Shown here: in pieces, positions 3,258 to 27,763 of the stretch | Layout: the number at the start of each line of letters is the position of its first letter | How positions within the stretch are numbered: position 1 is the stretch's first letter | Origin: Oscillospiraceae bacterium | Lineage (GTDB): Bacteria > Bacillota > Clostridia > UBA1381 > UBA9506 | Length of the DNA: 45,228 nucleotides | NCBI GenBank assembly: GCA_015069045.1 | Contig: SVJJ01000012.1 | Location: 1 to 45,228, forward strand | Direction: 5' to 3' | Notes under the pieces: generated by a model | Database searches by the model: none | What the model saw: the letters and a program-made list of their open reading frames with translations, nothing else | What the model was told of the DNA's origin: nothing | Translations under genes and position numbers: made by a program

Positions 3258-4118
3258 TTAATTTGGAACCTCAGAAATCACCGGTTCCACTAACAGATGT
3301 GTCTTGTTGCTGACTGCATTTTTTTCGGTCTGAGGAGAGATTCCCATATGATTCTTATAGGTTTTTGAAAAATATGACAAGTTTTCAAAACCGCTTTGTT
3401 CGGCCGCATCGCTAACGGAACATTGATTTGTAACCAACAAGGCTTTCGCATGATTGCAACGCAAGTGATTGATATAGTAAACTAAGGTGCAGTTAACGCA
3501 TTCTTTAAATAAGTGAGATATATAATACCGACTATACCCAACATGGGTTGCAATATCCTCAACTGATATAGGCTCCTTATAATGATTTTGCAAAAATCGC
3601 AGAACGTCTTTTATAATATCTGCCCTTCGTCCTATTATGGAGGCGTGGTTTTTCTGCTGTGAAACAGTATGACAACGGGCTAATTCAACAATAATGTTTA
3701 AAATTTCTGCCTTAATTTGCTCTTGAAAATATTTTTTTTCTTCGGAAAATTCCTGAGCAATATGCAGGAAACTGTCCTCTATTTTTGGGGAGTATAGCAT
3801 CCGCTCAAAGAGCAGAGTATCAATTGAAAAACCTACATCATTTAAAAATTTCTTATCAATAATCAAGCTATAATACTCTGCAACAGCGTCAGGCGTGGCA
3901 TAATGTAAATAGTTAGAGTTAATAACAGCAATATGTCTTTGGGGAACAGAAACTGTCACATGGTTAGTGGTCACATGAATCTCGCCCGAGATGACATAAA
4001 ACAGCTCCAAATTTTCATGCCAATGGATGTCCATTCCTTGCGAGCTGACTTTGTTATATTGAAATATGCAGGCATCTCTTGCACCAAAACGACCTAAATG
4101 TGATTCGTACTGAAACAT
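3258..4118 (-). CDS. AraC family transcriptional regulator with cupin sensor domain
   Basis: The 286-residue regulator has an N-terminal cupin-type AraC ligand-binding domain (about 1-150; HWHENLELFYVISGEIHV is the typical histidine-rich entry). The C-terminal DNA-binding domain (about 185-280) has two helix-turn-helix units, including VEDIATHVGYSRYYISHLF and SDAAEQSGFENLSYFSKTYK. The ATG chosen lies seven bases after GGAGG; an in-frame start ten codons earlier has none. It is divergent from the sugar ABC operon and is most likely its substrate-sensing activator. The ligand is presumably a sugar or oligosaccharide from that pathway, which is inference. Confidence 0.92.
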   Translation of the reverse strand: MFQYESHLGRFGARDACIFQYNKVSSQGMDIHWHENLELFYVISGEIHVTTNHVTVSVPQRHIAVINSNYLHYATPDAVAEYYSLIIDKKFLNDVGFSIDTLLFERMLYSPKIEDSFLHIAQEFSEEKKYFQEQIKAEILNIIVELARCHTVSQQKNHASIIGRRADIIKDVLRFLQNHYKEPISVEDIATHVGYSRYYISHLFKECVNCTLVYYINHLRCNHAKALLVTNQCSVSDAAEQSGFENLSYFSKTYKNHMGISPQTEKNAVSNKTHLLVEPVISEVPN

Positions 4119-4195
4119 ATGTAATCCTCCAAATAGTAAAAAGCACAATAGTATTAAAAAAACGCACTTTTCTTTCTTTACCTTTTATTATAAAT

Positions 4196-4224
4196 ATTAT
4201 ACAATAATATCGAGGATTAGGCAA
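4196..4224 (-). promoter_or_regulatory. Promoter of the AraC-type gene
   Basis: On the minus strand, -35 TTGCCT (4219-4224) and a perfect -10 TATAAT (4196-4201) are separated by 17 bases, about 75 bases upstream of the start codon. Confidence 0.7.
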
Positions 4225-4463
4225 GTATTTTTTAGTAAGAAAGAATGAAAACCAGGCACAAATTTTCAATCGATATTTTATTTAACAGTTTATGGTAAAT
4301 TTTTTCGAACTGTGTCTTAACAATCGACGCACAAAACAGCAAAAATGCGTTGTACTCATAAAAAAGTTTGGAACGTATTTATTTGTTGGCAGCTATCGAC
4401 CGTGGGACTTTTGCTGGCGAATGCGTAAAACATACCCAGCTCATTGCTTTTGCCTAACATTTC

Positions 4464-4489
4464 CATAGCTTTTTTATTATAGCTATGAT
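4464..4489 (+). promoter_or_regulatory. Inverted repeat over a probable -10 of the ABC operon
   Basis: CATAGCT (4464-4470) and AGCTATG (4481-4487) are perfect inverted arms ten bases apart. The right arm overlaps TATGAT (4484-4489), a plausible -10; at the right distance upstream there is only a poor -35 (TTCCAT, 4461-4466). A weak -35 fits an activator-dependent promoter. The repeat could instead bind a dimeric repressor or form a small hairpin. Confidence 0.45.
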
Positions 4490-4516
4490 AAAATTTTAAT
4501 TGCGAGGGAAGCAGAA

Positions 4517-5485
4517 ATGGACATGAAAAGAAAAAAAGAAGTCTGCGCAGGTGTAGCGGCAGAACAAAAAGAGAAGTCACAAAGTTATGCGATTAAGTGC
4601 TTGAAAAAAAACAAGATGACATACGCATTTCTTATACCTGCCATAGTTTTCACCATAATTTTTTGTTATATTCCCCTGGGCGGGTTATATATGGCGTTTG
4701 TAGACTATAATCCTTTTAAAGGCATTTTTGGCAGTCCCTTTGTTGGCTTGGAAAACATTAAAACAATTTTTTCTATGCCTGCATTGTATGGCTCCATTTT
4801 AAATACGATATGGCTTAGCTTATTGCGAATGTGTGTGAATTTTCCGTTGCCTATCATTTTTGCTTTATTACTGAATGAGGTAAAAAATCAAAAGTTTAAA
4901 CGAATTACACAAACGGTTAGTTACTTACCTCACTTTTTGTCCAGTATTGCGGTGGTTGGTATTGCCACCACGATTTACTCAAGTTCCGGTATTATTAATG
5001 ATATTCGCGCTATGATATACGGCCCGGACGTTCAGAGAATTCTATTTTTAGGTCAACAGAATTTCTTTGTACCAAACATAGTAATTCTTACAGCATGGCA
5101 AGGGTTGGGCTGGGGCACAATTATTTATCTGTCAGCTATTTCCGGTATTGACCCTGAGCTGTATGAGGCAGCAGTTATTGATGGTGCTGGCAAGTTTAAA
5201 CAATGTTGGCATATTACCTTACCCAGTATCAGTATTACAATTATGCTTTTGTTTGTTCTTGAAATTGGTAACCTGCTCGCATCAAACTTTGACTTAATTT
5301 ATGGTTTGCAAAACCCCTACATAAACTTTGAAGTTATTTCTACGGTGGTTTACAAACAGGGTATTACCCAGGGTAATTACCCGGTTGCAACAGCGTTTAG
5401 CTTTATAAATGGTCTTATCAGTTTGGTGTTAATTTTAATCGGTAATTTCATTTCTAAGAAAATTAACGATGTTTCACTTATATAA
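4517..5485 (+). CDS. Carbohydrate ABC transporter permease, LplB-like
   Basis: The 322-residue inner-membrane permease belongs to the CUT1 (oligosaccharide) family and resembles LplB and YteP. After a charged cytoplasmic tail (1-35) come about six membrane segments. The cytoplasmic EAA loop that contacts the ATPase is clear (EAAVIDGAGKFKQCWHITLP). With the next gene it forms the heterodimeric channel, fed by the lipoprotein encoded third. No ATPase gene is present anywhere in the locus, as is usual for this subfamily, which shares an MsmX-type ATPase encoded elsewhere. The ATG follows GAGGG by eight bases. Confidence 0.93.
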   Translation: MDMKRKKEVCAGVAAEQKEKSQSYAIKCLKKNKMTYAFLIPAIVFTIIFCYIPLGGLYMAFVDYNPFKGIFGSPFVGLENIKTIFSMPALYGSILNTIWLSLLRMCVNFPLPIIFALLLNEVKNQKFKRITQTVSYLPHFLSSIAVVGIATTIYSSSGIINDIRAMIYGPDVQRILFLGQQNFFVPNIVILTAWQGLGWGTIIYLSAISGIDPELYEAAVIDGAGKFKQCWHITLPSISITIMLLFVLEIGNLLASNFDLIYGLQNPYINFEVISTVVYKQGITQGNYPVATAFSFINGLISLVLILIGNFISKKINDVSLI

Positions 5486-5499
5486 AGGAGGCGTTTGCA

Positions 5500-6423
5500 G
5501 TGTTTATTAACAGAATGAAAAATGAAGGCACAGCTTATGGCGTCTTCAAAGTATTTAACGGCATTGTTATGGTTGCTGTTATCCTGATTACATTAATTCC
5601 CTATTTGAATGTTTTGGCTAAGTCCATAAACGATGGGGTAGATAGTATGCGTGGTGGTATTTTCCTCTGGCCTCGAGTTTTTACTCTGGAAAATTACAAG
5701 GTGCTTTTAAATGATAGTAGCATGTACCGTGCAACGCTTGTTACAATAGCGAAGGTAGTTCTTCAGGTTACAGGTTCAATCCTGTTGCAGTTTACAGCAG
5801 CTTATGCATTGTCTCGTCGGGAACTGTGGGGTCTTAAGGCAATCAATATATTCTTTTTAGTTCCCATGTATATTGGTGGCGGTTTGATTGCCAGCTACAT
5901 ACTGTTCTCTTATGTTGGCCTTTTAAATAATTTTTGGGTATATGTTATCCCATGCATCTGGAATTTTTACAATGTTATTATCATTCGCTCCTATATGGAG
6001 TCTAACATACCAGATGCTGTTATAGAAGCGGCGCGTATTGATGGTGCTCAGGAATGGACGTTATTTAGCCGAATAGTTCTTCCGTTATGTAAGCCGATTT
6101 TGGCTACCATTGTATTGTGGGTTGCTGTCGGCGCTTGGAACGAATGGACAACTACTTTGTACTACATACAAAACCCGGATCTGTACACTTTGCAATATAA
6201 GTTGATGCAAACCCTGAAAGAATCTGAACGAATCAGAGCTCTCATGCAACAAGCAGTTGAAAGCGGTAAAAGCGTTGAGGAGGTTGCTCAGGGCATGAAG
6301 GTCACCACAGATTCCATGCAGTCCGCACAGATTATTATTGTTACCTTACCTATTATTGCAGTATATCCCTTCTTGCAGAAACACTTTGTTAAGGGTGTTA
6401 CCTTAGGTTCCGTTAAGGGTTAA
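5500..6423 (+). CDS. Carbohydrate ABC transporter permease, LplC/YtcP-like
   Basis: The 307-residue partner permease has about six membrane segments and the EAA loop EAARIDGAQEWTLFSRIVLP, with the CUT1-type WNEWTT stretch behind it. It starts 14 bases after the previous stop with GGAGG upstream, so the two are cotranscribed. A polar segment at about 225-275 (LKESERIRALMQQAVESGK), before the last membrane helix, is typical of the YtcP/LplC branch. Confidence 0.93.
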   Translation: MFINRMKNEGTAYGVFKVFNGIVMVAVILITLIPYLNVLAKSINDGVDSMRGGIFLWPRVFTLENYKVLLNDSSMYRATLVTIAKVVLQVTGSILLQFTAAYALSRRELWGLKAINIFFLVPMYIGGGLIASYILFSYVGLLNNFWVYVIPCIWNFYNVIIIRSYMESNIPDAVIEAARIDGAQEWTLFSRIVLPLCKPILATIVLWVAVGAWNEWTTTLYYIQNPDLYTLQYKLMQTLKESERIRALMQQAVESGKSVEEVAQGMKVTTDSMQSAQIIIVTLPIIAVYPFLQKHFVKGVTLGSVKG

Positions 6424-6450
6424 TCAATAAACAAACAATTAAATTGCACT

Positions 6451-6478
6451 CCCTCCCTCGGTATAGAACGGGGGAGGG
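6451..6478 (+). terminator. Intercistronic hairpin before the binding-protein gene
   Basis: CCCTCCCTCG (6451-6460) pairs with CGGGGGAGGG (6469-6478) with one G-U pair and an eight-base loop. No T run follows, so it is unlikely to terminate fully. A hairpin at this place may protect or trim mRNA so that the binding protein is made in excess over the permeases; that role is inferred. Confidence 0.5.
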
Positions 6479-6613
6479 TACTGTGGCTTTTAGAGAGGGC
6501 AATTTATATGTCTCTATTAAATAGGAAGAAACTCGGGTCAGTTTTTAAAAGCGGGGTCATTATTACCGCATTAAAATAACAAAAACAATGTAAAAAACAG
6601 GGAGGAAATGAGA

Positions 6614-8548
6614 ATGAAAATGAGAAGATTGATTGCTCTGCTTATGGGAGTTATCATGCTGACTGCATGCTTATCCGGTTGCGGCGGCACAAAAGAGGTA
6701 GTAACAGAATTGCCTTGGGCAATTAATGAAATGGATGTAGACGTTATTGACGATTTGCCGGATTGGACAGGTGAACAACTTGAGTTATCAGTTTGGCATG
6801 CCTATGCCTCTAACCATCCTTCTGCAGGTAAAACAATGAAAAATGACGTTTTTCATAGCGAAGTAGCACGTGTTTCCGGTATTACACTGGACAAGAAAAA
6901 TTCCTTTGATAATGGTGGTGACGGCTCTGCTGATGCGAGAGTTGCACAAATGGTAGCAACCAAAGCCTATCCTCATATTGGTGTTGGCGTTCCTACAACT
7001 GTTATTGAGGACCTGGCAGGGGGCGACAAGCTTTGGGCATTAGATGAATACATTCCTAAGTATATGCCTAACTATTGGAGTATAGTTAATAAAAATGATG
7101 AAATCAGAGCCCTGTGGGAGCATGATCGGGCTGAAGACGGTAAAACATACAATTTAACAACCATTGGTAATATTGCTTATAAATACATTGATCCTGAATT
7201 TTACGAATATCGCAAGAACCTGCTGGGCGAAGTTACTGAAAGCAGACAATATATTTATGTTCGTGATGATATTTTAAAAACCATACATCCTGAAGCGTAT
7301 AGCTTGAATGAACTGCAGGATATTTATGTAAAGAACGGATCCTTTACGGAAGAAGAACTGACTGACTTTACCATTAAGAGCATTGATGAGTTTAAACAAC
7401 TTCTTGTAGATATTAAAGGCTTAAACCTGAAAGAAAACGGCCGTACCATTTGGCCTACCTACACTGCTAACGGTGGCGATAACTGGTCCGTATTATATTC
7501 TATGATGGTATTATTGGGTACACCTTACAATGGCGCAAACAGCTACTTTATTTATCTCGACAGAGAAGATGGAAAGCTTAAAAACACATGGAAAGAAGAT
7601 TGGTATAAAGAATATGTAAAATTCTGGGCAGAACTTCCTCGTGAGGGCTTAGCTCCGGAAGAAGCGCTGATTGATAATAATGCAGCGTTTGAACAAAAGG
7701 TTAACAATGGCGAATATGCCGTTCTTTATGGTACATTACCACCGACACAAGAAGCTTTAAAGGCTGCCGGCAAAGATTGCGGCTATCGTAAGGTTTTCCT
7801 GGACATTACTCCGGATGACACAAGATTTACCCATTTCGGCACCAAAGCCCTTACAGCAGAGCAACCCACATGTTTCTTTAAAGATAAGATCACAACTGAG
7901 GCACAACTTGAGCAGGTTCTGCGTTTAATAGACTTCTGCTACAGTGATGCCGGCATGAAGTTTGCAATGTGGGGTCCCCAAAAGGCCGGACTGTATACGG
8001 AAACTGAAGATGGTTTGCGTTACACCGATCCCGCGCTTGAAAAAGCCATTATTTCAGATGGTGACACAGAAGTTCTCTTCGATTATGGTTTCAGCACTTA
8101 TCCTGTTATTCAGCACCTCACCGGTATTCAGAATTTAAACGGTATTAAATTTGCTGCCATTAATAAATACGCAGCTAATTTAGAGTATGCTAAGGGTGAA
8201 CAGGAGAGAGCACCGGAAGGATACACAAAGAGATTTAACTACGGCTTTATTGCAGAGATACCGGACGCTCCAACTGTTCGACTTCCCTGGCATATCTTCA
8301 GCCTGGCAGGTTATAGTGAAACCTGCAAGACTTTGTGGAGTGGACGTTCCGCTCTTGAAACTGAAATCAAGAGAGTTTTAGCTACCAAAACCGATGAGGA
8401 ATTTGAAAAAGCTTACCAAAACGTTATTGATTTAGAAGAATCTATGGGTTACACAGATGAAGCCTTTGAGGAAATTAATCAAATCTTTGTTGAAATGAAT
8501 GGTCAGGAGACAATTGATGCATTGTGCGAATGGGAATTCGATCAATAA
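6614..8548 (+). CDS. Extracellular sugar-binding lipoprotein of the ABC transporter
   Basis: The 644-residue family-1 solute-binding protein has a lipoprotein signal ending in the lipobox LSGC (cysteine about residue 23), so it is tethered to the outer membrane face. The body has the two-lobed LplA/YtcQ-type pattern, and the length exceeds most maltose-type binding proteins but fits this branch, which takes oligosaccharides. I chose the ATG at 6614, eight bases after GGAGG; the ATG at 6608 is only two bases from it. Its last 33 codons recur as a decayed fragment about 4.6 kb downstream. Confidence 0.92.
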   Translation: MKMRRLIALLMGVIMLTACLSGCGGTKEVVTELPWAINEMDVDVIDDLPDWTGEQLELSVWHAYASNHPSAGKTMKNDVFHSEVARVSGITLDKKNSFDNGGDGSADARVAQMVATKAYPHIGVGVPTTVIEDLAGGDKLWALDEYIPKYMPNYWSIVNKNDEIRALWEHDRAEDGKTYNLTTIGNIAYKYIDPEFYEYRKNLLGEVTESRQYIYVRDDILKTIHPEAYSLNELQDIYVKNGSFTEEELTDFTIKSIDEFKQLLVDIKGLNLKENGRTIWPTYTANGGDNWSVLYSMMVLLGTPYNGANSYFIYLDREDGKLKNTWKEDWYKEYVKFWAELPREGLAPEEALIDNNAAFEQKVNNGEYAVLYGTLPPTQEALKAAGKDCGYRKVFLDITPDDTRFTHFGTKALTAEQPTCFFKDKITTEAQLEQVLRLIDFCYSDAGMKFAMWGPQKAGLYTETEDGLRYTDPALEKAIISDGDTEVLFDYGFSTYPVIQHLTGIQNLNGIKFAAINKYAANLEYAKGEQERAPEGYTKRFNYGFIAEIPDAPTVRLPWHIFSLAGYSETCKTLWSGRSALETEIKRVLATKTDEEFEKAYQNVIDLEESMGYTDEAFEEINQIFVEMNGQETIDALCEWEFDQ

Positions 8549-8567
8549 AGAGTATTACATAGGGTAT

Positions 8568-8589
8568 GAGGCCCATATTTCTGGGCCTC
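8568..8589 (+). promoter_or_regulatory. Leader hairpin before beta-helix gene 1
   Basis: GAGGCCCA (8568-8575) and TGGGCCTC (8582-8589) form a perfect eight-pair stem with a six-base loop, 30 bases before the start codon. There is no T run. A shorter counterpart sits at the same place before copy 2. Confidence 0.55.
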
Positions 8590-8619
8590 TCCCAATGCAA
8601 AAGAAAGGATGATAAGGGG

Positions 8620-11600
8620 ATGAACAAGAAAATACTACGTCGCTGTAGCACATTGTTTATTGTGCTAACCTTAGTATTAAGTATATGTGTTCCAATGCTG
8701 ACCGGCGGCGCAGAGTCGGATTACCGCTTGTCCCCGGGTCCGGTATCGGCAACGCCGGAAAGCAAGTATTTGCTTTCCCAAACCAATGTTACTATTAGCG
8801 GTACAACTTGGAATTTTTCCACTGGTGGATCTGTCAGCTACGACATTTTCATTCCCTTTGAAAGTGATCGATTAGTGTTTAACCATCCGGGGGATGGAAA
8901 GGACGCAAATCTTACCATTACGGTAGATGATTTGGTTTATCAAACATCCTTGAGTGATGAGGGCAACGCAACCAGCACAGAAATTGCGATTCGCGTTCCC
9001 AGAGGAAGCCATGTTCTCACAGTTTCGGCTGCCAGCGCAATTACCATCAGTAACCTTACTTTCCATAAAATTAACGAAACATGGTATTGGCAGCATTGCT
9101 CCACTCTGGACATTTCAGATTATGAGTCTACTCTCTTAACCACCATTGCCGTTAAAGAGGGTAGCAGAGCCTTCCGTTCCGGTGGCTCTATGAGATATTG
9201 GGACATGTCAACCAAAGACCTTATGCCCATGAATGTATCCGGTGTTATGTATGTGCCTCTAGAAATGCTGGCAGAGAGCATGCGCTACTATTGCGAGGAC
9301 TATCCTGACAAAAACTACATTCTTCTCCGTGGCGAAACCCGCGACCTTGAAATGCAAGGCGGTGTTGGCTACTTAACAGAAGGGTTCGATACTAAAACAC
9401 CTGTTTCCATGGAAATTATTTATAAAGATGGAGTTACCTGGGTGCCCCTGCGTAAGATTGCAGAAACCTTAGGCTATGGTGTTTCCTATCGTGACGGTAT
9501 TGCGGTTGTTGATGACCGTATACTGGCTCGTGAAGTTGTAGAAGACAACACAATTTTTACTGAACTGAAAGCAGAGTTTGCGAACTATGATGCAACGGAT
9601 ATCATTGTTGGTAAAACCTACCATGTTGCCAAAACTGGTAGCGATGCTAACGACGGAACAGCTGCATCGCCGTTCTTAACTTTAAATAAAGCCGGGTTAG
9701 AGGCCCAGGCAGGTGACACGGTTATTATCCATGAGGGTACCTATCGTGAAACCTTTACCCCACAAAACAATGGTACACTGACCTCTCCCATCATTTTCCA
9801 GGCTGCTGAGGGAGAAGGGGATGTTATCATTTCCGCATTAGAACCCATTAGCGGATTTACCCAGGGCGATGATGGTTTATGGTATGCAACCCCCACCGTA
9901 AATATGGGCTTTGGTAACAACCAATTGTTCTATCAGGGCGAGGAACTGCACGCCGGCCGTCACCCTAACACCCACACCAAAAAGGGTGCAATCGGTTGGC
10001 CCGAAGGCATCTCCAAGGTTTGGCCCACCATGGGTAACATGATGATTACCGAAAAGGGTGGCTTTGATGTTTACAGTGATACCGACTTGAATCAAGAAGA
10101 AGAAAACTACTGGGCAGGCGGTACCTTTATTACCGTTAAAGGTGAAGCCTGGACCTATGTTAGTGGTGATATTGTTAGCTCCGAAAAGGGCAAATTAACC
10201 GTTAAAGACCATGATGACTGGGTAGACTATACCTTAGGTACAAGTGACTTCTTTAAAAATGTTACCAATGAAGACTTTGGTTATATTACTAACCATTACA
10301 ACACCGTTGATATGCCCGGCGAATGGTATATGGATGCAGCGGGTAGTCTGGTCTTAAAAGCACCGGATGGTGCTAACATGGCCGATGCCTCTAAGTTTGA
10401 AACTAAAGCAAGATATAATGTTATCAACATGAATAACAGAAAAAATATTGTAATTCGTGGCATTAAAACCATTGGTGGCAGCTTAATTATGGAAGACGGC
10501 GAAAACAACGTGGTGGATAGTTGCACAATGACACACATGAGCCACTTTACGTTGTATATCTGCCCCGGCCGTATGCTCCGTGACCCCAGCGTTTCTCACA
10601 ACGCTGACAGAAGCCGTCAGCGTGGCGAATCCGGCAACTGGGTTGGCGGAACAAGAAATGCCCTTATTAACAACATCTTTGACCATAGTGCCGGAACAGG
10701 CTTATTCCTACAGGGCATAGGCCACTACATTAAAAACAACCAATTCCTAAACTGCGGTTACTCGGGTGGTTATCCCGGTGCTTTGTGCGTAACGGAACAG
10801 CGTGGTTTACCCTCCGGTACACCTAAGGGCGGTCACATCATTATTTATAACGATATTATCAATGCAGCCCGTCAAGGTCTTAACATTGGTGGTGGCGAGA
10901 CAAGCGACGGCATGTCTCCTGCTTACATTCCTTGCGATGTTGCATATAACTACCTTGAAAACTGTACCATGGGTACCCGTGATACCGGTGCTACTTATTC
11001 CTACGCTTTAAATATTGGTACAGACTGGGCTCGTTCTGCAACACATCACAACATGTATGCCGGAGAGCATTTCATTGGTGCAGGTTTCCACAAACTGTGC
11101 AACACCTTCTACATTGATGGTGGTGTAACAGCTATGGATAGCTACTTAAACCTTTCTTTCACCAGCCAGCCTAAGTGGCCAACCAGCGTTCAGTCTAAAA
11201 CCCATGTATATGGCGATGAGCAGGCAACACCGGGTAGCCGTGGCGGTAACGACCGTGACCTGCAGTTTGTCCCCGGCGGTGAAGATTCTCTCCAAATTGC
11301 AGACTATCCTGATGGCAAACCTTTCAGAGCGGGTAGTACCCATCGCCGTACAGACCGGTTCATGCTGAACTACAATAACTTTAAAGCCGGCAACCCCGGT
11401 GTTTACAAACCTTCAAACAATCCTGCAGATACCAGCGTTACACCTCAAATTTTTGAGAATGTTCAAATTGGCGGCGATTACAGACATTACATTACCATGT
11501 TCTTAGATGTAGAGCCCGAGTGGTATCCCACCAGGGATGGTGTTAAATATTCACCCATTGTTACCTTAAATGTTAAGAATACAAGCGGTGAAACTGTGGC

Positions 11601-18273: not shown

Positions 18274-18336
18274 AAACCTAATTAGGTTTATTATATATAT
18301 TCAATAACTATATTATTAAAAAGGATGTGTAAAGTA

Positions 18337-20295
18337 ATGAAAAAATTTCTCAGCTTAGTTCTAACTTTCTGCTTAGTGGCAAGTTGCTTTATCTGCTTGC
18401 CCGTTTCAGCGGCTGCAGCCGATGGCGCTCTCGGCCAAGGTATTGTTCTCTTTGAGCAAGACTTTGAAGGCATGACACAGGATGCCACTCTAGCCAAAGC
18501 CGACTTTAACGATTATGGCTACATTTCCAACACAAGCCTTGCAAACTCTGCTGCAACCTCAGCCTACGTTAAAGATGGAGACAATATGATTTGCCGTGCA
18601 ACCGGAACAGCCGGCTATGGTCTCAGTTCAAGACTTATCTTTGACATGCCTGTTGACAAAGGCGCTTTAGTGGTTGAATATCGTATGCATAGTACGAACG
18701 ACTGTGCGTATAACAATGCCAACTCTGCCATAGATACCAATGGCAACTTTATTTACAAAATGGACGTTCACTATGGTGGCGGCAGCTATGGCGGCGGTGG
18801 CCGTAATCTTACGCACACGCAATTTACCCAAACGAATTTCTGGATTTCCTTTAAAACTGTTTTAACCAGAAACGCAGCCAACGATGGTTGGGATGTTGTT
18901 GTGTATGACAACGCTACCGGAGAAGTACATGCCCAAGGTTCCTTCACAGGCGGTGCTATTGGTTCTTATACCTTGCATGAATACAGAATAGAATCCTCTG
19001 GTGCTGCCGTTGGAAAAACTGCAGATGTGGATGATATTAAGGTTACCTGGTACCCCGGTTCAGACTATGTTTACAACGAAACCTTTGAAGATAACACTGC
19101 TGCTGATGCAACCTATTCAGTTTCTGCACTTCCAAACTTCACCAGCTTACGTTCAGACGTTCTTCCGGATGTAGCAAATAACGGTTCTATTGCATTTAAC
19201 GAAGTAAAAGGGGATACCTATTTAAGACTTGTAGGTCCTAATGCTGCTTCTGCCACATTGCCTTTGCCCCAAGCCTTAAAAACCGGTACCATTACTGCAA
19301 TTTGGCACAGCCAGGCGAGCACTGGTCCTGACTGGGGTTATTTTGGCGGTCCCTCTTTTGGTGCCCAAACAGCCGGTGGCAACTTAGATAAACATCTTGG
19401 TTTCTTTACCACTGCTAAAGGCGATAACCCATCCGGCGCTCATCAAGGTACATGGTGTACCAACACCATGACAGCAACCCGCGCTTCCGAGAGTGATCCC
19501 TGGACCTTTACCTTTAAAAACAGTGCAAGAACGACCGATCCAGTCGCTACCAACACTACTGCTAGTAATGAGGCGATAGATGCGGTTCAATTCCAGGCTT
19601 TGGTTGGTTTTAATGCATTTAGCTTTGATCTTGATGATCTTATTGTTATGATTGACAGCCCGGGCTATGCTACAATGGATAATGCCCTCATTCGTGCACG
19701 TACCAACGCTGTTAACGATTACTTTGTTGATATTACAATGGCAGAAGATGCAGAGATGCCTTTGACCAATTATGTTACTAACAACATTGTGGTTCGTGAT
19801 ACCACAACAAATGCCTTTGTATATCCGTTTACTGGTGACGGTGGTGTCAGCGTAAATAAAGACTATGTTGCCGGACAGTACAATATACTTGATGGTAGCG
19901 CTCCTATGCCCACTGGCGATGGCCGTTTGATGGAAGTAGAGTTCCGCGGTCTGCGCACAACTTATCGTCATTGGGGTAAGGATAGTGTTGTTTTCAACCC
20001 AACCTTTACCAAGGCTACAGAAGGCAATGTGGACACCATTACCTACAACGCAAAGATCTTTGGTACCATAACTGGTGCAAAACAGGCTTATTTGGCAATT
20101 TATAACGACAACACTCTGGTAGCTGTTTCTGCTCCTGTTGCCGTAACACCTGATTCTGATGGTGCTAACCTTGCCGTGTCTGTTTCTGCCCCTGCCGGCG
20201 GTTGGACACATGTTAAGGCTATTTTATTAGAAAGCTCAGCTTCCTTAACTCCTGTTGGCCCCGCGGAGGTGGCCACAGCCGCTCAGTTTCAGTAA
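18337..20295 (+). CDS. Secreted multi-domain LamG-like/Ig-like protein (probably cut short by a frameshift)
   Basis: The 652-residue product has a signal peptide (1-29; VASC could serve as a lipobox). Two LamG/concanavalin-like beta-sandwich domains follow (about 35-245, ending DIKVTW, and 250-440, ending DLDDLIVMID), then an Ig-like region (445-560) and a terminal beta domain (565-645). The ATG is 12 bases after AAGGATG's GGA; an in-frame ATG at 18325 overlaps that site. The stop at 20293 is followed at once by a long open frame in +1. No enzyme motif is visible, so binding is the likely role. A short palindrome (18274-18289) precedes the gene. Confidence 0.8.
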   Translation: MKKFLSLVLTFCLVASCFICLPVSAAAADGALGQGIVLFEQDFEGMTQDATLAKADFNDYGYISNTSLANSAATSAYVKDGDNMICRATGTAGYGLSSRLIFDMPVDKGALVVEYRMHSTNDCAYNNANSAIDTNGNFIYKMDVHYGGGSYGGGGRNLTHTQFTQTNFWISFKTVLTRNAANDGWDVVVYDNATGEVHAQGSFTGGAIGSYTLHEYRIESSGAAVGKTADVDDIKVTWYPGSDYVYNETFEDNTAADATYSVSALPNFTSLRSDVLPDVANNGSIAFNEVKGDTYLRLVGPNAASATLPLPQALKTGTITAIWHSQASTGPDWGYFGGPSFGAQTAGGNLDKHLGFFTTAKGDNPSGAHQGTWCTNTMTATRASESDPWTFTFKNSARTTDPVATNTTASNEAIDAVQFQALVGFNAFSFDLDDLIVMIDSPGYATMDNALIRARTNAVNDYFVDITMAEDAEMPLTNYVTNNIVVRDTTTNAFVYPFTGDGGVSVNKDYVAGQYNILDGSAPMPTGDGRLMEVEFRGLRTTYRHWGKDSVVFNPTFTKATEGNVDTITYNAKIFGTITGAKQAYLAIYNDNTLVAVSAPVAVTPDSDGANLAVSVSAPAGGWTHVKAILLESSASLTPVGPAEVATAAQFQ

Positions 20296-20860
20296 TCCCA
20301 TTTATCAAACCGAGTGGTTTTTGCGGGTTAACAGCGGAAGTTTGTTAGACAGCACAACGGTTACAAAAGCAAACTTTACCCTTACAGCAGGGGATGGGGC
20401 AACAATTCCTGTTAAGGATGTTACCTACTACTCTAATGCACAAGAGGTTGCTTTATACCCCGCAACAACGATTGTACCTCAAGACGGTGTTTGCCTGGTA
20501 GAAAGTGATTCACTTTTAGACCCGGACGGTCAGGCAGTTTCCATTAGTCAAACTGCTTCGGTTTTAACAGAGAACGAGTGTGCACTTTTTGATATGTCTG
20601 TTAAAAACCTGCAATGTTACCGGAACAATGTGCCGGTTTATGGCTGGCTGGCAGAAGGCACATACACCGCACAAGCGACTGTGATTAACACAGCTGCAAC
20701 CGAAAAAACTAAGAATTTGGTTGTTTACAAAACAAACATTAACAATCAAACATCGGTTCTTTACCGTCTGGGTGTAACGCTGCAGCCGGAGGAGGAAAGA
20801 ATTGTAACATTTAGCTTTAACGCCAACAGTGGCGACAGAGTTGAAGCTACAATGGAATAA
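20255..20860 (+). pseudogene. C-terminal Ig-like segment in the +1 frame, probable continuation of the previous protein
   Basis: About 190 convincing residues begin near 20290 (NPIYQTEWFLRVNSGSLL), with a Big_5/SbsA-type Ig-like domain followed by a second beta domain. There is no signal peptide, and the only early in-frame start, a TTG at 20255, has no ribosome site; the residues from it to about 20285 look out of frame. Removing one base, for example one T of the TTT at 20287-20289, would join both frames into a single protein of about 840 residues. It may be a true frameshift mutation, a sequence error, or less likely a separate reinitiated gene. Confidence 0.65.
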
Positions 20861-20875
20861 AACAAACTGACATGT

Positions 20876-20909
20876 TTTGCAGAGGCCTTTTTAAAAAGGC
20901 CTCTGCAAA
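20876..20909 (+). terminator. Perfect 34-base palindrome, probable terminator or attenuator hairpin
   Basis: The 17-base left arm starts TTTGCAGAGGCC and ends TTTTT; the right arm is its exact complement, ending CTCTGCAAA. It follows the previous frame by 15 bases. No T run follows, but the symmetry makes it active on either strand. A second, weaker repeat (CAGAGC/GCTCTTTG, about 20917-20940) lies downstream. Confidence 0.6.
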
Positions 20910-21027
20910 TAACACACAGAGCGGGATGGATTGCTCTTTGTGGGTAGTGTCATGGGCGTTATTTAAAAAAACGATATGATAAAACATCATACCATTATTT
21001 TTACCCCAACGGAAGGATGAATGATAT

Positions 21028-24000
21028 ATGAAGAAAATTATGGCCTTATTTCTTACCGCTGTGTTGGCCATGTCGCTATGCATTCCGAGCTATGCTGACA
21101 ATGTTTTCAATTTAACCCCAAATGATGTTACGGAGGATTCCAACTACAACACAGAGCAGCTTTCCACCTCAGGAAAGTTGTTGGGCGGTCAGCATTATCT
21201 CGGTATTGAAATAGATACTGGTAAAGAACTCATTAATATGGTTACCATTCGATACAGAACAGGTACAACTCCTAACAGTATTGCGCAACTTTACTTAGAC
21301 AGTCCGCAAGGTCAACTGTTGGGCGAAGTTGACATTGTTGCAGCATCCAACGGTGCTTGGCAATATTCTGATGCTGTTTTTATGCCCCAGATTCCCATTA
21401 AAGGAAAAGTTAAACTTTACCTCAAGTTAACGGGCGGCGACATGTGGGTTCATAACTTCAAGATTAACACCATTGAAGACTTGGGTAATGCAAGCTTTGG
21501 TCATTTCCCACAGCCCATTGATAAATATGTAGACATTGACTCATCCGACGACGAAATGATTATTGATGCACTTACCACCTTAGGCGTTTTGGAAGAATAC
21601 ACCGATTCTGATTTTCGTGGTTATGTTCCCATGACCAGAATGGAGTTTGTGCGCCTGGTTGGTAAAGCTATGCAGGCAGAAAATTTTGCCGTAGCCAATA
21701 CAGCATTTTTGGATGTGCCCGCTGAAAACGCCGATGCTAAATTGTTAGACGGTTTGTTCCGTTTAGGCGTTGTTCGCGGTGATGGCTTTGGCAATTTTGC
21801 TCCTAACAGCTTTATTACACTGCAGGAAGCAACGGCCGTTTGCTTAAATGCCTTAGGTTATGCACCCTTAGTACAAAAATCAGGGAATGCTATTACCGTG
21901 GCAAACCAAATTAAACTGCTTAAGGGCGTTGAAATTACTTCTGGCGGTGTTGCAAAGCTGAATGGTATTCGCTTGATTTACAACATGCTTCTGGAAGAGA
22001 CTTTATTAGCAAATGAAGTGCATACAGAAGGCATGATTTATGAAACAGGCGCTACACTGTTAGAGAAAAATCTAAAGATTTATCATGACCAGGGGGTTGT
22101 AACCGGCAATGAGAACACAGGTCTTTATTCGGTTCAACATACCTATAAGACCCTGACAATTGATAACCAGGTTTATGTTGAAAATGACACAGGTGCATCT
22201 GACTTGCTGGGTACACTTTGTGACTATTTCTACACAATTGAAGATGGCGCACGCGTATTAAAAGCAATTTATCCCGCAGTTAAGTCAAGCACTGTTGTTT
22301 TAAAGAGCGGTCAAGGATATGATTTTACAGAAATCAGCACCGAAAAAGTTGTCTGCGAGGATGATGAAGACGAATATGAATATGAATTGAGCCAAACAGC
22401 AGCCATTATTTACAATGGTGTTGCTTTGGATCAATATTTACATCAACTGGTTACACCTTCAACCTTTACAGGTATTCTTACCTTGATTGATAATGACCAG
22501 GATGAACTGATTGACTGCTTGCGGATTGACCACAGCAGAGACATTGTTGTAACAGCAATGAACGGCAATCAGTTATATGATACAATTGCCGGGGAGACTA
22601 TTAATTTCCCTGCAAACGGCAAAATTCTCGGTTTTGATGATGGCCAGCCCCGGTCACTTGGCACCATGCCTTTAAACAGCGTGGTAAGCTATTTCGCCAG
22701 CGCTAATGCTACCGGCAAACAACTGGTTCGTATGTGCTGGAACAATGGTGAAGTTGTTGGTCGCTTAACAAGCAAAGCTGGTAAGGACATTACCATTAAT
22801 GATCAGACCTATACAATTGCCAACAATTGTCGCGATACCTTAACAGTTGGCATGTACGGCCAATTCAGCTTTAACATGTTTGGTCAGGTTGTGGCCTATG
22901 ATCCTGTTACAGACGATAGCAAAAAGGTTGGTTATGTGTTAGGTACATCTTCCGGCACAACCACCAATCTTGTAACAAAAGCACAGATTCGAGTACTGAC
23001 AGAAGATGGCATTGTTATTTTAGATCAGGCCGACACCGTTTTGGCTGATGGTTTATCCATTCGCAGTAGCGAAGCCTTATACAATGGTGTAAACGATTCA
23101 GAAGGCGCACCCATTTTTGTTGGTTTGGATGAGATTGCTAGCCAGCCGATTTTATATCGCCTTAATCAAGCTGGTCAGTTCACTATGATTGACACAGTGA
23201 ATCCGGGTGCCGGCGGTGTTGATGACGGTTTAACCGAGCTGAGCAGCGGTCCAAGTAGCTATATGAATCTGTCCAACATCTTGGCGGATACAACCATGAG
23301 CGGCTTCCCCGGACGGTTCCCGCTGAAAGGTGACGAAACCAGATTTATCAAATTAACCGCTGATGGTCTTGAGAAAAACTATCGTATTGACAGAGGTTTC
23401 TCAAACCGTACCAATGAACCTGTATCTAACCTGCGCGTTTACTCCTTCGCACAGGATTCTATTATGGCTGACCTTATTCTGGGTACCGGCTATAACTATG
23501 AGGCTAATCGTCGCAGCACACCCTTTATATTTAAGGGCACAGGCAACACCACTGACGATGAAGGCAATGTGGTTAAGTACATTGATGGCGTAAGCTATTT
23601 GAAAGATGAACGCTATGTAATTGAAAACACCAGTTACACCGGCGACTTAAAGACTTTAATTGATTCCTTGCAACCCGGTGATTTGGTACTGCCTTATTTG
23701 ACCGATGGTCTGCTTGTTAACATGGAGTTAATCTATATTTCCGATGGTGCAGCTACAAACGATGCTGGCATTGCTGCTAAGCTTAACAAAACAGATTTAT
23801 TCGAATATACCGGTGGTGGCGAATTTTACATTGGTAAAATTTTGACCACAGAAGGTAATTACAGTCAGTTTAATATTTCCGGCAAAACCACATGGGAAAC
23901 CTATGTTACCAGCAGCACCTCCGTGGGAAGCTGTACAGAAGGTGAAGGCGGCAAATATTCCATTATTTCAGGACAAGGCATAAGCTCTATTATGGAAGGT

Positions 24001-24069
24001 GAAGTTTTCATTGCTTGCACATCCGATCAGAGCATGAGCGGTGCTTTTGTCTATCGCTTAGCTGAGTAG
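21028..24069 (+). CDS. Secreted SLH-domain surface protein
   Basis: The 1,013-residue protein has a signal peptide (1-23, cut near SYADN). A beta-sandwich, CBM6-like segment (25-155) is followed by two S-layer-homology units: 167-215 (YVDIDSSDDEMIIDALTTLG) and 227-280 (FLDVPAENADAKLLDGLF, GDGFGNFAPNSFITLQEA). A possible degenerate third lies near 290-325. SLH domains hold proteins on secondary wall polymers. The remaining 680 residues are beta-rich and unrecognised; no catalytic motif was seen. Placing SLH near the N-terminus is unlike the next gene, whose SLH block is C-terminal. The start has AAGGA about ten bases upstream. Confidence 0.83.
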   Translation: MKKIMALFLTAVLAMSLCIPSYADNVFNLTPNDVTEDSNYNTEQLSTSGKLLGGQHYLGIEIDTGKELINMVTIRYRTGTTPNSIAQLYLDSPQGQLLGEVDIVAASNGAWQYSDAVFMPQIPIKGKVKLYLKLTGGDMWVHNFKINTIEDLGNASFGHFPQPIDKYVDIDSSDDEMIIDALTTLGVLEEYTDSDFRGYVPMTRMEFVRLVGKAMQAENFAVANTAFLDVPAENADAKLLDGLFRLGVVRGDGFGNFAPNSFITLQEATAVCLNALGYAPLVQKSGNAITVANQIKLLKGVEITSGGVAKLNGIRLIYNMLLEETLLANEVHTEGMIYETGATLLEKNLKIYHDQGVVTGNENTGLYSVQHTYKTLTIDNQVYVENDTGASDLLGTLCDYFYTIEDGARVLKAIYPAVKSSTVVLKSGQGYDFTEISTEKVVCEDDEDEYEYELSQTAAIIYNGVALDQYLHQLVTPSTFTGILTLIDNDQDELIDCLRIDHSRDIVVTAMNGNQLYDTIAGETINFPANGKILGFDDGQPRSLGTMPLNSVVSYFASANATGKQLVRMCWNNGEVVGRLTSKAGKDITINDQTYTIANNCRDTLTVGMYGQFSFNMFGQVVAYDPVTDDSKKVGYVLGTSSGTTTNLVTKAQIRVLTEDGIVILDQADTVLADGLSIRSSEALYNGVNDSEGAPIFVGLDEIASQPILYRLNQAGQFTMIDTVNPGAGGVDDGLTELSSGPSSYMNLSNILADTTMSGFPGRFPLKGDETRFIKLTADGLEKNYRIDRGFSNRTNEPVSNLRVYSFAQDSIMADLILGTGYNYEANRRSTPFIFKGTGNTTDDEGNVVKYIDGVSYLKDERYVIENTSYTGDLKTLIDSLQPGDLVLPYLTDGLLVNMELIYISDGAATNDAGIAAKLNKTDLFEYTGGGEFYIGKILTTEGNYSQFNISGKTTWETYVTSSTSVGSCTEGEGGKYSIISGQGISSIMEGEVFIACTSDQSMSGAFVYRLAE

Positions 24070-24084
24070 GAGGGAGAGAATTAA

Positions 24085-25842
24085 GTGAAAAAGATACTAA
24101 CATTATTTCTCGCCATTACAATGATTATGAGTTTAGCATGCTTTAGTGTTAGCGCTACAGGCAGTGCACCAATCACTTTAGAGCTGACTTTTAATCCGGA
24201 TGGCAACACACTGACAGCCACCGGTTATGTTGTGAGTGCGCGGGACAGAATCCCTATGTTTTTAATTATCGAGAGCGATAATAACGACCCTACCGGTGCA
24301 AGTGATACGGTTGTTGATGTAAAGAGCACATTGGCAGTTGGTCATGAAGGACCTAACGTTCCTTATACCTTCCCGACTGTGCAGCTGCCGAACAATTTGC
24401 CCGGCGGCACACTGACAGCCACTGTTTCAGCTAATTGGCTCAACGTGAGCGCAACAGATAGCTATACCTATGTTGGTGCAGTGGATCAGTTACTTGCATT
24501 GCAGAATTTAAACAGCTACAGTGCTGCAGAGAATACTGCGGCCTATGAAACAGAACTGTTAGCTAATGACGACCTTTTAGGTCTGGATACCACAACCTTT
24601 ACAGATATGGGTGAAACAGCATCTGCAGCAGTACTTAGAAATTTAATGAGTGTTCAATACACCTTGCCTACAAATTCTATAGAGAATTTGACAGATGAGG
24701 ATTGTTTGACCATTAAAGAAGCTGTTTCAACATGCTATACCCAGTTCCAGGAAGCCATGGCATTAGGAACCTTCTTTGACTGTGATACCACAGAAAAGCT
24801 TGCAGCATGGTACAACACATATAAAGGTACCTATGGCTTTGAGGCTAACGTTCCGGGTACAACGGTAGATGAAACCAAGTTCTTATCTTACTATAATGAG
24901 GCTATGGCTTCGGCAGCATTTTTAGGACGGTCTGCCAACGTTAGCGATGTTACAACAGTTGCTGAATTAAACCTGGCAATGAAAGATCAGGCTCTTCTCC
25001 ATGCAGTTGAACATTCCGGTCAGGTGATTATTCACACTCTTTTAGAAGATTTTGAAGAACATTTGACTTTGATTGACTACACCGCGTGGGATGGCCTCTC
25101 TATTGAGAAACAGAATGAAGTTTGTCAGTTGTTAACCGGCGAGAACTTTGCTACCATTTCCGCTTTTTGTGAGTTTGTGAATAGCTCAATTGAAGAAGTG
25201 GAAGAGGCTGACGACGATGACGATGACGACGATGGATATCGTGGTGGCGGCGGCAAGGATAAGCCCATTGGCATTGGACAGCAATTGGTAGATGATACAA
25301 AACCAATGGTTAGCCAGGTGTTCTTTACAGACATCTCTGACGTAACATGGGCAAAGGATGCCATTGTTTACTTACAATCAAAGGGTGTTGTTAGCGGCCG
25401 TACCGCTGAAACCTTTGACCCCAACGCACAGGTTACCCGTGCAGAGTTGTTAAAAATGCTGGTTGCAGGATTTAAGTTGACCGGTAGCAGTGATGCTCGC
25501 TTTGGTGACGTTTCTGCAGATGCTTGGTATGCTGATTATGTTGCTATTGGTGCAGCAAACGGCCTCATTACCGGTGACGAAAACGGAAACTTTAATCCCA
25601 ATCAGGCAGTTAGCAGACAGGATGCAGCTGTTCTCATGTATCGGGCTCTGAATCCTTCAGAATCTGCTGCAAAGGCTTCTTTCGTTGATTATGGCAGCAT
25701 TTCTGAATATGCGAACACTGCAGTAAATTATATGTACGAAAAGGGCGTTATTAACGGTGTTGGAGATGGATGCTTTGCACCCCTTGCAGAGCTCTCCAGA
25801 GCACAGGCAGCTAAGATGTTGTATTACATGCTGCAACAATAA
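24085..25842 (+). CDS. Secreted protein with three C-terminal SLH domains
   Basis: The 585-residue protein starts at GTG (24085) after GGAGGG, 15 bases behind the previous stop. It has a signal peptide (1-25), a beta-sandwich segment (28-135), a largely helical middle (140-370), and an acidic, glycine-rich linker containing eight aspartates in a row followed by GYRGGGG (about 373-390). Three SLH domains end the protein (about 412-465, 470-525, 530-585; motifs FTDISDVTWAKDAIVYL and FGDVSADAWYADYV). The triple SLH block is the standard wall-binding unit. With no enzyme domain it may serve as a wall scaffold; the acid run could bind calcium. Confidence 0.87.
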   Translation: MKKILTLFLAITMIMSLACFSVSATGSAPITLELTFNPDGNTLTATGYVVSARDRIPMFLIIESDNNDPTGASDTVVDVKSTLAVGHEGPNVPYTFPTVQLPNNLPGGTLTATVSANWLNVSATDSYTYVGAVDQLLALQNLNSYSAAENTAAYETELLANDDLLGLDTTTFTDMGETASAAVLRNLMSVQYTLPTNSIENLTDEDCLTIKEAVSTCYTQFQEAMALGTFFDCDTTEKLAAWYNTYKGTYGFEANVPGTTVDETKFLSYYNEAMASAAFLGRSANVSDVTTVAELNLAMKDQALLHAVEHSGQVIIHTLLEDFEEHLTLIDYTAWDGLSIEKQNEVCQLLTGENFATISAFCEFVNSSIEEVEEADDDDDDDDGYRGGGGKDKPIGIGQQLVDDTKPMVSQVFFTDISDVTWAKDAIVYLQSKGVVSGRTAETFDPNAQVTRAELLKMLVAGFKLTGSSDARFGDVSADAWYADYVAIGAANGLITGDENGNFNPNQAVSRQDAAVLMYRALNPSESAAKASFVDYGSISEYANTAVNYMYEKGVINGVGDGCFAPLAELSRAQAAKMLYYMLQQ

Positions 25843-25874
25843 TTGTGTTATCCTTTCTAGAATCCATATTAAGG

Positions 25875-25906
25875 GCGGGCAACATCTTTTTTAAGATATT
25901 GCCCGC
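25875..25906 (+). terminator. Terminator after the SLH protein gene
   Basis: GCGGGCAACATCTT pairs with AAGATATTGCCCGC, with one G-U pair and a short T loop, followed by TTCTTTC. It ends the surface-protein run and separates it from the GH3 gene. Confidence 0.75.
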
Positions 25907-26041
25907 TTCTTTCGGCAGTAGAGAACAATCATTTAATTAAGGAACAGGGCAGGACAGTTGCCCCAGCTACATTAATTTACAAATTATTAAGAAACAAACA
26001 GCAGCAGAATATTTATCGTAACAATGAAGGAGAGAAATACC

Positions 26042-27709
26042 ATGCAAAGACCAAAAGTCAGCGACTTAACTGTTAGAGAAAAAATCGGCCAGGTTCTTAT
26101 GATTTCCCAGGGTGTGTTATTTACCAAAGATGATGGCAGTTGCAGAACTAATGAGGAAGCCTACGAGCTTATGTCAAAATACCAATTCGGCGGCATGTGG
26201 ACCGCCGGCGGGATAGCCATGGATGTAGTTAATGTGGGAGATTGGTCAGCTGACGCAGTTTTAGGCACTCTGGAGGACAGTAGAGTTTTTATGGAAAAAC
26301 TGCAAAAGACAGTGAAAATCCCCATGTTCATTGGTGTGGACTGCGAAAGGGGAACGGGTGATAATTATTCAGATGGTACAACAACCCTTGGTGCCCTATC
26401 TGTTGGAGCGGCTAATGATGAGAAATTAACCTACGAGCTAAATGCTGCCGTTGCCCGAGAGGTAAAAGCCGCCGGTGCCAACTGGCGCTGGTTCCCTGTT
26501 GTCGATTTAAACAGTCGCTTTTCGTCTCATTTGATGCGGAATTTCTCTGATGATATAGATCGTATGTCCCGTCATGCCATTGCAGCTATGCGTGGTGTGC
26601 AAAGCGAGGATGTTGTTTCAACAGCGAAACATTTCCCCGGTATTGATCCTTATGAATACAGAGATTCTCATATGGTAACAACCATCATTAACCTTTCTGT
26701 AGATGAATGGAGAAAGACACAGGCTAAAACCTTCCAGGCGATGATTGATGCCGGTGTTATGAGTATTATGAGTTCTCATATTGCCTTCCCCGCGGCAGAT
26801 GATGAAATGATTAATGGCAGATATATCCCTGCCACTGCATCCTCGAAAATTCTGAAGGGTTTATTGCGCGACGAAATGGGATTTGAAGGGGTTCTTATTA
26901 CAGATGCACTTTGTATGGGTGGCATGTCTACAATGTTCTCCCGTCAGGATATGATCATTCGTGCCTTCAATGCCGGTAATGATATTTTGCTTGATGTAAG
27001 ATTTAATGATGTTGAGCTATTCTATGAGGCTGTTTGCGATGGACGTATTCCTATGGAGCGCCTTGATGAATCTTGCGAGCGCGTGCTTGCCATGAAGGAG
27101 AAAATAGGATTGTTTGGCGAGAAAAAGGCGCCTGGTGATTCGGCAACGATTTGCAAGCAGACTCGTGAGATTAATCAAAAGGTTGCTGAAAAATCCATGA
27201 CCTTATTATATGATCGCAATGAAATGCTTCCTTTATCCAAGGAAAAAATTAAAAAGGTAGCCATTATTTGCAGTTCGCATTTCCCTGCATTCCGGGACAT
27301 GTTGTCGGTTACGGAGGAAGAATTTAATAAGCGTGGAGCAGAGGTTACCCTTGTTGACGATATTCCCAGCGGGAAAGTTTTGAAAGCCCTGGCCGAGGAA
27401 TATGATTTATTGATTTATGCCGGATATGTGGCACCCCATAGACCCATGGGCTTCCCCTCGCTGTATGGCGATAAAGCGTTGACCTATGTATTTGCTTTTT
27501 CGGCCGGGAAAGAAAAATCACTAGGGGTTTCTATGGGATATCCTTTTCTCCATCATGATATCATGCAAGGGGCAGAGACCTTTATTAACACATACTCCCC
27601 TGATGCAGAAAGCCAAATGGCATTTGTAAAGGCGCTGTATGGCGAAATTGCCTTTAACACAGACTCTCCTGTTGATGTAAAACCCAAGATGAGACAGTTC
27701 TATTGCTAA
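26042..27709 (+). CDS. Glycoside hydrolase family 3 enzyme, NagZ-like motif
   Basis: The 555-residue enzyme has no signal peptide and is cytoplasmic. The GH3 barrel (about 10-340) has KHFPG at 196-200, an Asp-Ser-His motif at 208-210, and the nucleophile aspartate D288 in ITDALCMGGM. A smaller C-terminal alpha/beta domain (about 380-555) follows. In NagZ-type GH3 enzymes an Asp-His pair in this loop acts as acid/base, which points to beta-N-acetylhexosaminides and leaves phosphorolysis possible. The GHGDT of classical NagZ is replaced by IDPYEYR, so it is a divergent member. It would act on imported oligosaccharide. The ATG at 26042 follows GGAGAG; an earlier in-frame ATG at 26024 has no spaced site. 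Confidence 0.9.
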   Translation: MQRPKVSDLTVREKIGQVLMISQGVLFTKDDGSCRTNEEAYELMSKYQFGGMWTAGGIAMDVVNVGDWSADAVLGTLEDSRVFMEKLQKTVKIPMFIGVDCERGTGDNYSDGTTTLGALSVGAANDEKLTYELNAAVAREVKAAGANWRWFPVVDLNSRFSSHLMRNFSDDIDRMSRHAIAAMRGVQSEDVVSTAKHFPGIDPYEYRDSHMVTTIINLSVDEWRKTQAKTFQAMIDAGVMSIMSSHIAFPAADDEMINGRYIPATASSKILKGLLRDEMGFEGVLITDALCMGGMSTMFSRQDMIIRAFNAGNDILLDVRFNDVELFYEAVCDGRIPMERLDESCERVLAMKEKIGLFGEKKAPGDSATICKQTREINQKVAEKSMTLLYDRNEMLPLSKEKIKKVAIICSSHFPAFRDMLSVTEEEFNKRGAEVTLVDDIPSGKVLKALAEEYDLLIYAGYVAPHRPMGFPSLYGDKALTYVFAFSAGKEKSLGVSMGYPFLHHDIMQGAETFINTYSPDAESQMAFVKALYGEIAFNTDSPVDVKPKMRQFYC

Positions 27710-27728
27710 GTATATTCATAAAACAAAG

Positions 27729-27763
27729 AACAGGCTCTCCAGCAAAATGCTGGAGAGCCTGTT
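27729..27763 (+). terminator. Terminator after the GH3 gene
   Basis: A perfect 15-pair stem (AACAGGCTCTCCAGC and its complement) with loop AAAAT, ending in TTTATATAG. It can work in both directions and also faces the convergent small gene. Confidence 0.9.

Follow-up and report, generated by a model that had tools for sequence, protein, structure and literature searches.

The window analysed here, a stretch of 45,228 nucleotides, is one whole contig (SVJJ01000012.1) of the 1.48-Mb, 97.5% complete genome of an Oscillospiraceae bacterium. At positions 3258-27763 it carries a locus that is likely to be explained jointly as an AraC-controlled, wall-linked operon for glycan use with GH141-like enzymes and as the source of a LamG-type surface protein made in two forms by +1 frameshifting. 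The most interesting feature is the probable frameshift, a programmed event of the release factor 2 (RF2) type conserved in one surface protein of the relatives. An earlier note on this DNA, made from its letters, had described a glycan-utilisation locus. Its observation was confirmed; its interpretation was partly supported and is extended here.

Results

Nine +1 junctions in the second LamG gene

All loci examined (designated by L numbers) were scanned for long open overlaps in the +1 or -1 frame. In the window the gene of a second LamG-type secreted protein is split into a zero-frame part (18325-20295, plus strand, stop codon TAA at 20293-20295) and an overlapping +1-frame open reading frame (ORF) at 20255-20860, which was absent from the gene list of the earlier note and encodes a C-terminal extension of about 188 codons past the shift. 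The same gene, located 5′ of the gene for a CBM6/SLH protein (hub), is split in L052, L055, L057 and L060. A profile of the +1-frame part brought in L077 and L078 and then L091 and L092, so that the homologous domain was found in eight split loci besides the window, giving nine such loci in seven genomes. The direction is always +1, and 187-196 codons are open downstream.

The zero frame ends with CTT TGA in seven of the nine loci, with TTT TGA in L052 and with TTT CAG TAA in the window. YTT TGA together with coding continued in the +1 frame is therefore present at eight loci, the window's copy being the exception. The shift rule was written down after five loci, and the four later ones (L077, L078, L091, L092) conformed to it. 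A C follows the stop (TGAC) at six of the nine sites. As background, one among 279 other ORFs of the loci examined ends with CTT TGA (binomial P ~3e-16), and so does one among 302 other ORFs in 399 kb sampled from a single relative genome, where the +1 frame is open for only 6 codons. The single background case in the loci, CTT TGA C in L042, was considered as a further site and rejected as the end of a spurious antisense ORF. The genome's own prfB has a CTT TGA C site with GAGGGA upstream.

The +1-frame part is conserved as protein, with about 20% identity. Changes between L077 and L078 number 34, 17 and 51 at +1-frame codon positions 1, 2 and 3, an excess at the third position. In L058 the two parts are fused in a single reading frame. 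The zero-frame ORF starts with a signal-peptide-like N-terminus, and no signal peptide precedes the +1-frame ORF. The predicted +1 products read ...PSLDTFGVIVYNPER (L060) and ...QGLDELGQAFTVK (L078) across the junction. Neither Pfam nor the PDB gave a significant match for the +1-frame domain, Ig families included, so that "Ig-like" stays a loose description; its resemblance to the end of the zero-frame ORF is weak and non-significant.

Elements known or suspected to stimulate shifting were also inspected. A Shine-Dalgarno-like stretch about 3 nucleotides upstream, the stimulator in prfB, is strong at L091 (GGAGGTGGG) and L055 (GGGGTG). Downstream stem-loops are very strong in three of seven tested sites (L055, z -6.4; L057, z -7.1; L052, z -4.1). 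Those of L057 (21411-21443) and L055 (18751-18785) lie inside the coding sequence just 3′ of the shift, are nearly perfect, and both have the form GTGTATG...CATACAC. Upstream hairpins around an AGG loop in the window, L052 and L060 were dropped as candidates, their folding stability being unremarkable at the tested sites (z -1.4 to 0).

Taken together, the split probably reflects a programmed +1 frameshift by which a surface lectin is produced in two lengths, short and long; both the shift itself and a ratio between its products are what we infer from the aligned junctions.

The putative shift site of the window

A GGAGGT element (20265-20270) lies 16 nucleotides 5′ of a TTT codon in the window, and the arrangement GGAGGT-N16-TTT is shared with L052. 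Therefore the TTT at 20287-20289 was taken as the homologous slippery codon. The putative shift site, TTT CAG TAA T (20287-20296), would correspond to TTT TGA T in L052 and to CTT TGA C elsewhere. As it departs from YTT TGA, it was kept apart from the canonical RF2-type sites. Slipping at TTT_C would give the peptide F-S-N-P, the L052 equivalent being F-D-N-R, and 188 codons of the +1 frame remain open. The UUU_U found in a minority of prfB genes (PMC5009743) and the +1 site UCC_UUU_CGU in influenza A virus expression (PMC3498833) bear on the L052 and window sites. Either the shift still occurs in the window via TTT_C or the site is decaying; use of the shift is more doubtful here than at the sites of the relatives.

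Beta-helix proteins with a GH141-like fold

Two large beta-helix proteins, BH1 (8566-12939) and BH2 (13193-16897), are encoded on the plus strand and share 78% identity. In the Pfam scan BH1 has a CBM6-like N-terminus, a Cu_amine_oxidN1 domain and a beta-helix. Within the family alignment of 15 members CBM_6 was found in 10, Cu_amine_oxidN1 in all, and GH141_M, the GH141 insertion domain, in two, the window's own proteins not being among these two. A sequence search with the beta-helix protein alone recovers an N-terminal cap common to GH120, PL9 and others. The profile of the 15-member alignment matches BT_1002 (5mqp, E 6.1e-07) and CBM6 structures.

An AlphaFold2 model of BH2 residues 30-1000 was obtained with confidence (predicted local distance difference test, pLDDT, 75; predicted template modelling score 0.80). 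Its catalytic fold is a right-handed beta-helix like that of BT_1002. Its top Foldseek match is 5mqp (BT_1002, GH141; 3.3e-16), and a second structural aligner superimposed model residues 302-883 on residues 18-616 of 5mqp (Z 22.5, root mean square deviation 3.2, 472 residues). This coverage exceeds that by GH136, GH120 and PL9 structures (≤363 residues), whose Z scores are 19-21; for GH120 Z is 20.3 over 363 residues, and its sequence match is restricted to the N-terminal cap. Judged from the model, the beta-helix proteins can be placed in a known class of enzyme folds and are GH141-like. The remark of the earlier note that, beta-helix and GH3 folds apart, no common polysaccharide-degrading family can be recognised is therefore not supported where it is taken to point beyond the known families, since the modelling makes these proteins hydrolases of a GH141-like kind that carry CBM6-type modules.

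BT_1002 requires Asp 523 and Asp 564 (PMC10154630, PMC12786026). In BH2, Asp 791 and Asp 836 are invariant in the family and lie 45 residues apart, compared with 41 for D523/D564, although the two pairs are not aligned residue to residue. Characterised GH141 members, among them BT_1002, Xyn141E and fucanases, have rhamnogalacturonan-II, xylan or fucoidan as targets (PMC12786026). Because they act on different glycans, the substrate is not readable from the family. BH2 resembles these enzymes in that they provide the nearest solved structure of its model, but it differs by an identity of about 16%, by the extra N-terminal CBM6-like and Cu_amine_oxidN1 domains and by a catalytic pair that is putative.

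BH1 residues 1226-1456 (window 12241-12936) share 41% identity with the N-terminal domain (16963-17628) of the product of the LamG gene at 16894-18273. This C-terminal domain of BH1 appears to be the trace of a tandem duplication with a fusion in one copy. Related genomes also encode beta-helix proteins of about 620 amino acids without signal peptide (L104:109-1986, L037:10905-12761, L036:7463-9319). Their N-terminal cap is 40-52% identical, an AraC regulator often adjoins, and they look like GH120-type cytoplasmic enzymes.

LamG proteins, possible wall anchoring and import

Upstream of the split gene, and overlapping BH2 by ATGA, lies the gene of a secreted LamG/Big_5-type protein (16894-18273, plus strand). 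The naming of both products as LamG/Ig-like, as in the earlier note, finds weak backing in the window's own sequences: Big_5 stays below the cut-off in the first (E 0.00086), and Pfam gave no LamG or Ig-like match in the sequence of the 18325-20295 product, which is assigned through the domains of its homologues. It is clear in the seven relatives, four of which contain Laminin_G_3 (best 2e-31) and three Big_5.

SLH repeats above the family cut-off are present in both downstream proteins, one in the hub (21028-24069, plus strand; 1.5e-07) and three at the C-terminus of the protein encoded by 24085-25842 (plus strand; 3.3e-35), whose N-terminal region is conserved. The earlier note saw no enzyme domain in either; the larger one in addition has a CBM6-like domain, and CBM_6 was found in five of six members of the hub family. 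The hub model consists of a CBM6 domain, an SLH unit and a large uncharacterised C-terminal part kept in relatives, and it matches SpaA-SLH and CBM6 structures. Anchoring by SLH usually needs the pyruvyl transferase CsaB, which is encoded in this genome (G000:C14, 255.6 bits against a cut-off of 213.1). From the repeats and CsaB, SLH wall anchoring is plausible, and the SLH proteins may, as suggested before, hold the secreted ones. Pfam scans of the locus proteins revealed neither cohesin nor dockerin.

The importer is of the LplB/LplC (CUT1) type and comprises an LplB-type permease (4517-5485; BPD_transp_1, 5.3e-16; 66-69% identity to the L052/L057 orthologues), an LplC-type permease (5500-6423; 1.1e-15; 71-73%) and a solute-binding lipoprotein (6608-8548), all on the plus strand. 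The lipoprotein has a lipobox in its signal region, had no family in the Pfam scan and is 33-47% identical over about 640 amino acids to the product of the gene at the same place in relatives. One sugar-ABC (ATP-binding cassette) ATPase of the OB_MalK type is encoded in the genome away from the locus, which is the usual arrangement for LplB/LplC importers.

Conservation of the cassette

With BH2 alone as query the contig scan gave no match, and an alignment of six relatives succeeded. Full-length beta-helix relatives were found at nine loci (L052-L060) in gut Clostridia assemblies, most of which derive from samples of the gut of water buffalo, water deer and goat and one of which is a RUG assembly. 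Loci found by two search routes were counted once, and L056 and L060 belong to one genome (G492). The order LplB, LplC, lipoprotein, one or two beta-helix proteins, LamG, CBM6/SLH hub, small SLH protein is kept in L052, L055, L056, L057 and L058; this evidence spans the paired stretches L056/L108, L057/L110-111 and L058/L112-113. L054 contains the importer, the beta-helix protein, one SLH protein and the hub. In L059 and L060 the cassette is partial, cut by the contig end or rearranged. Identity of the permeases to their orthologues in the relatives reaches 73%, and the small SLH protein is 29-38% identical to its L047/L052 equivalents over most of its length. The cassette can also be broken up: L053:9914-13129 is a full-length beta-helix relative with no adjoining LplB/LplC importer.

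According to the earlier note, the idea of a joint locus would fall if relatives of the beta-helix genes never occurred with SLH and ABC genes elsewhere. At least five other gut Clostridia genomes have them together, and as the regulator, permease, binding protein, beta-helix, LamG and SLH genes recur, largely in the same order, this objection does not apply. The locus is patchy: the other sampled genomes of the window's genus contain no full-length close relative of BH2, and no further copies were found in a phylum-wide sample of 398 genomes or in the order of G107.

Remaining genes and borders of the locus

All genes named in the earlier note are present, and Pfam recovers HTH_18/AraC, both BPD_transp_1 permeases, SLH in both proteins and GH3. 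The description of them as running nearly in one direction is accurate: from 4517 to 27709 all genes are on the plus strand, and the AraC-family regulator (3258-4148; HTH_18 1.3e-19, AraC_binding 4e-05), which has a cupin-type sensor domain, alone is on the minus strand, divergent from the operon. The last gene (26024-27709, plus strand) encodes a cytoplasmic GH3 enzyme of the NagZ/BglX type with the motif KHFPG...DSH (Glyco_hydro_3, 1e-62). Its best solved relative is 5vqd, the beta-glucoside phosphorylase BglX (2.9e-52). A strong terminator-like hairpin with a 16-pair stem (27729-27763; listed on the minus strand for its T-rich tail) closes the locus, and its outer edge coincides with the end point chosen before.

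A perfect 28-base inverted repeat, GCAGAGGCCTTTTTAAAAAGGCCTCTGC, lies between the +1-frame ORF and the hub gene (20879-20906) and may be an attenuator or processing site. Another strong inverted repeat (28105-28137) separates the GH3 gene from the adjoining gene of a DUF5050 protein (28226-30043, minus strand). Past the locus, from about 31 kb, genes have housekeeping-like translations.

Discussion

In the proposed scheme the two secreted GH141-like beta-helix hydrolases, with their CBM6-type modules, would cut a complex glycan. The LamG/Ig-like proteins and the CBM6-SLH protein would retain it at the wall, the SLH repeats being held on a pyruvylated wall polymer. Oligosaccharides would be taken up by the importer of LplB, LplC and lipoprotein, which would draw its energy from a shared MsmX-type ATPase with a gene outside the locus, and finished by the NagZ/BglX-type GH3 enzyme in the cytoplasm. 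During synthesis of the second LamG protein some ribosomes would terminate at the zero-frame end and release the short form; others would slip +1 at the pyrimidine-rich codon beside a slow stop (CUU UGA C in most relatives) and append a beta-rich domain of about 190 residues, yielding the long form. The substrate, the catalysis and the assembly at the wall are the proposed parts of this scheme.

Several observations weigh against this explanation. The Shine-Dalgarno-like stretch is weak or absent at seven of the nine junctions, and the downstream stem-loop was rejected as a general stimulator, being absent at other tested sites. L077 and L078 are close relatives, so that the junctions are not all fully independent. 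In the window, a CAG codon separates TTT from the stop, which leaves no TGA beside the slippery codon. A search with a sub-profile, intended to place the catalytic residues of BT_1002 in an alignment, gave no match in that region, and the hub model is of low confidence (pLDDT 61).

These operons contain many overlapping ORFs whose starts are coupled, and the +1-frame ORF could be an independent gene that is translationally coupled and re-initiates near the stop of the first, no frameshift being involved. We regard this as very improbable, because the second ORF would follow a secreted protein with no signal peptide of its own and is fused to that protein in L058. Moreover, the +1 frame of L057 is open for only 8 codons upstream and offers no start before the conserved domain, the sole start in L077/L078 lies 38 nucleotides before the stop with no Shine-Dalgarno sequence, and the CTT/TTT TGA at eight of nine ORF ends is not needed for coupling. 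That gene decay or faulty assembly produced the splits might be argued from the deviating site of the window and from the fact that all sequences are metagenome assemblies. Yet direction, position, motif and downstream length are common to nine loci in seven genomes, and the downstream frame is kept as protein with a codon-position bias, which makes such an origin scarcely credible.

For the beta-helix proteins, assignment as lyases (PL9/PL6-like) or GH120 xylosidases instead of GH141-like hydrolases is unlikely but deserves some weight. The N-terminal cap is by sequence closest to GH120 (3vst, 2e-18) and also matches PL9 (5olq), and the structural Z scores of GH136, GH120 and PL9 come near that of 5mqp; 5mqp, however, covers the most residues, and GH141_M occurs in two family members. 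The locus as a whole might serve the cell's own envelope, by remodelling of wall or S-layer or by adhesion, and not nutrition. SLH, Cu_amine_oxidN1 and Ig-like domains dominate it, and NagZ-type GH3 enzymes act in wall recycling too. This purpose seems rather improbable in view of the GH141-like fold and the CBM6 modules, the LplB/LplC importer and binding protein in every complete locus, and a scattered occurrence among close relatives of the kind shown by accessory nutrition loci.

The prfB frameshift consensus is YTT_TRA_C (PMC3711429), its site being CTT TGA C with an upstream Shine-Dalgarno-like element (PMC12421855). As in prfB, including that of this genome, YTT TGA(C) ends the zero frame and the continuation lies in +1. 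Unlike in prfB, the site lies late in the sequence for a long secreted protein and not at the beginning of the gene, a C-terminal domain would be added and RF2 synthesis is not controlled, and the Shine-Dalgarno-like element is mostly absent. The literature searched describes CTT TGA C for prfB only and reports no surface protein with a site of the RF2 type; among stable genes of bacterial chromosomes there are few conserved cases of programmed frameshifting (PMC5009743). By analogy, the nearest functional parallel would be phage coat and tail proteins that acquire Ig-like C-terminal extensions through frameshifting, such as a Listeria phage tail gene with a +1 shift at CCC_UGA (PMC5009743). 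In phages T3, A2 and Listeria PSA, too, some copies of a structural protein are made with a C-terminal extension through a shift of +1 or -1, whereas here a cellular, wall-associated glycan protein is concerned and the added beta-rich domain has no significant Ig-family match.

Gram-positive polysaccharide-utilisation loci with a CUT1 importer share an AraC (or two-component) regulator, LplB, LplC, a lipoprotein, secreted hydrolases and a cytoplasmic glycoside hydrolase (GH) with the present locus. It differs from them in the CBM6/SLH wall and LamG proteins conserved in the cassette and in having no common endo-acting GH family. With the cellulosome it shares multi-protein glycan degradation at the cell surface and SLH anchoring, but not cohesin and dockerin. 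If the proposed explanation is true, the cassette is a testable unit for the wall-level harvest of a complex glycan by uncultured gut Clostridia, using GH141-like enzymes and no cellulosome.

We lean slightly towards the view that a conserved cellular, non-mobile gene family outside prfB uses an RF2-type +1 signal to produce short and long forms of a wall-associated glycan-binding protein. Since the signal competes with RF2, the ratio of the two forms may follow the RF2 level or the growth state; translation termination would then tune the make-up of the surface layer with which these bacteria capture glycans. If the frameshift is true, gene calling and metagenome annotation would as a matter of routine break such proteins in two or cut them short.

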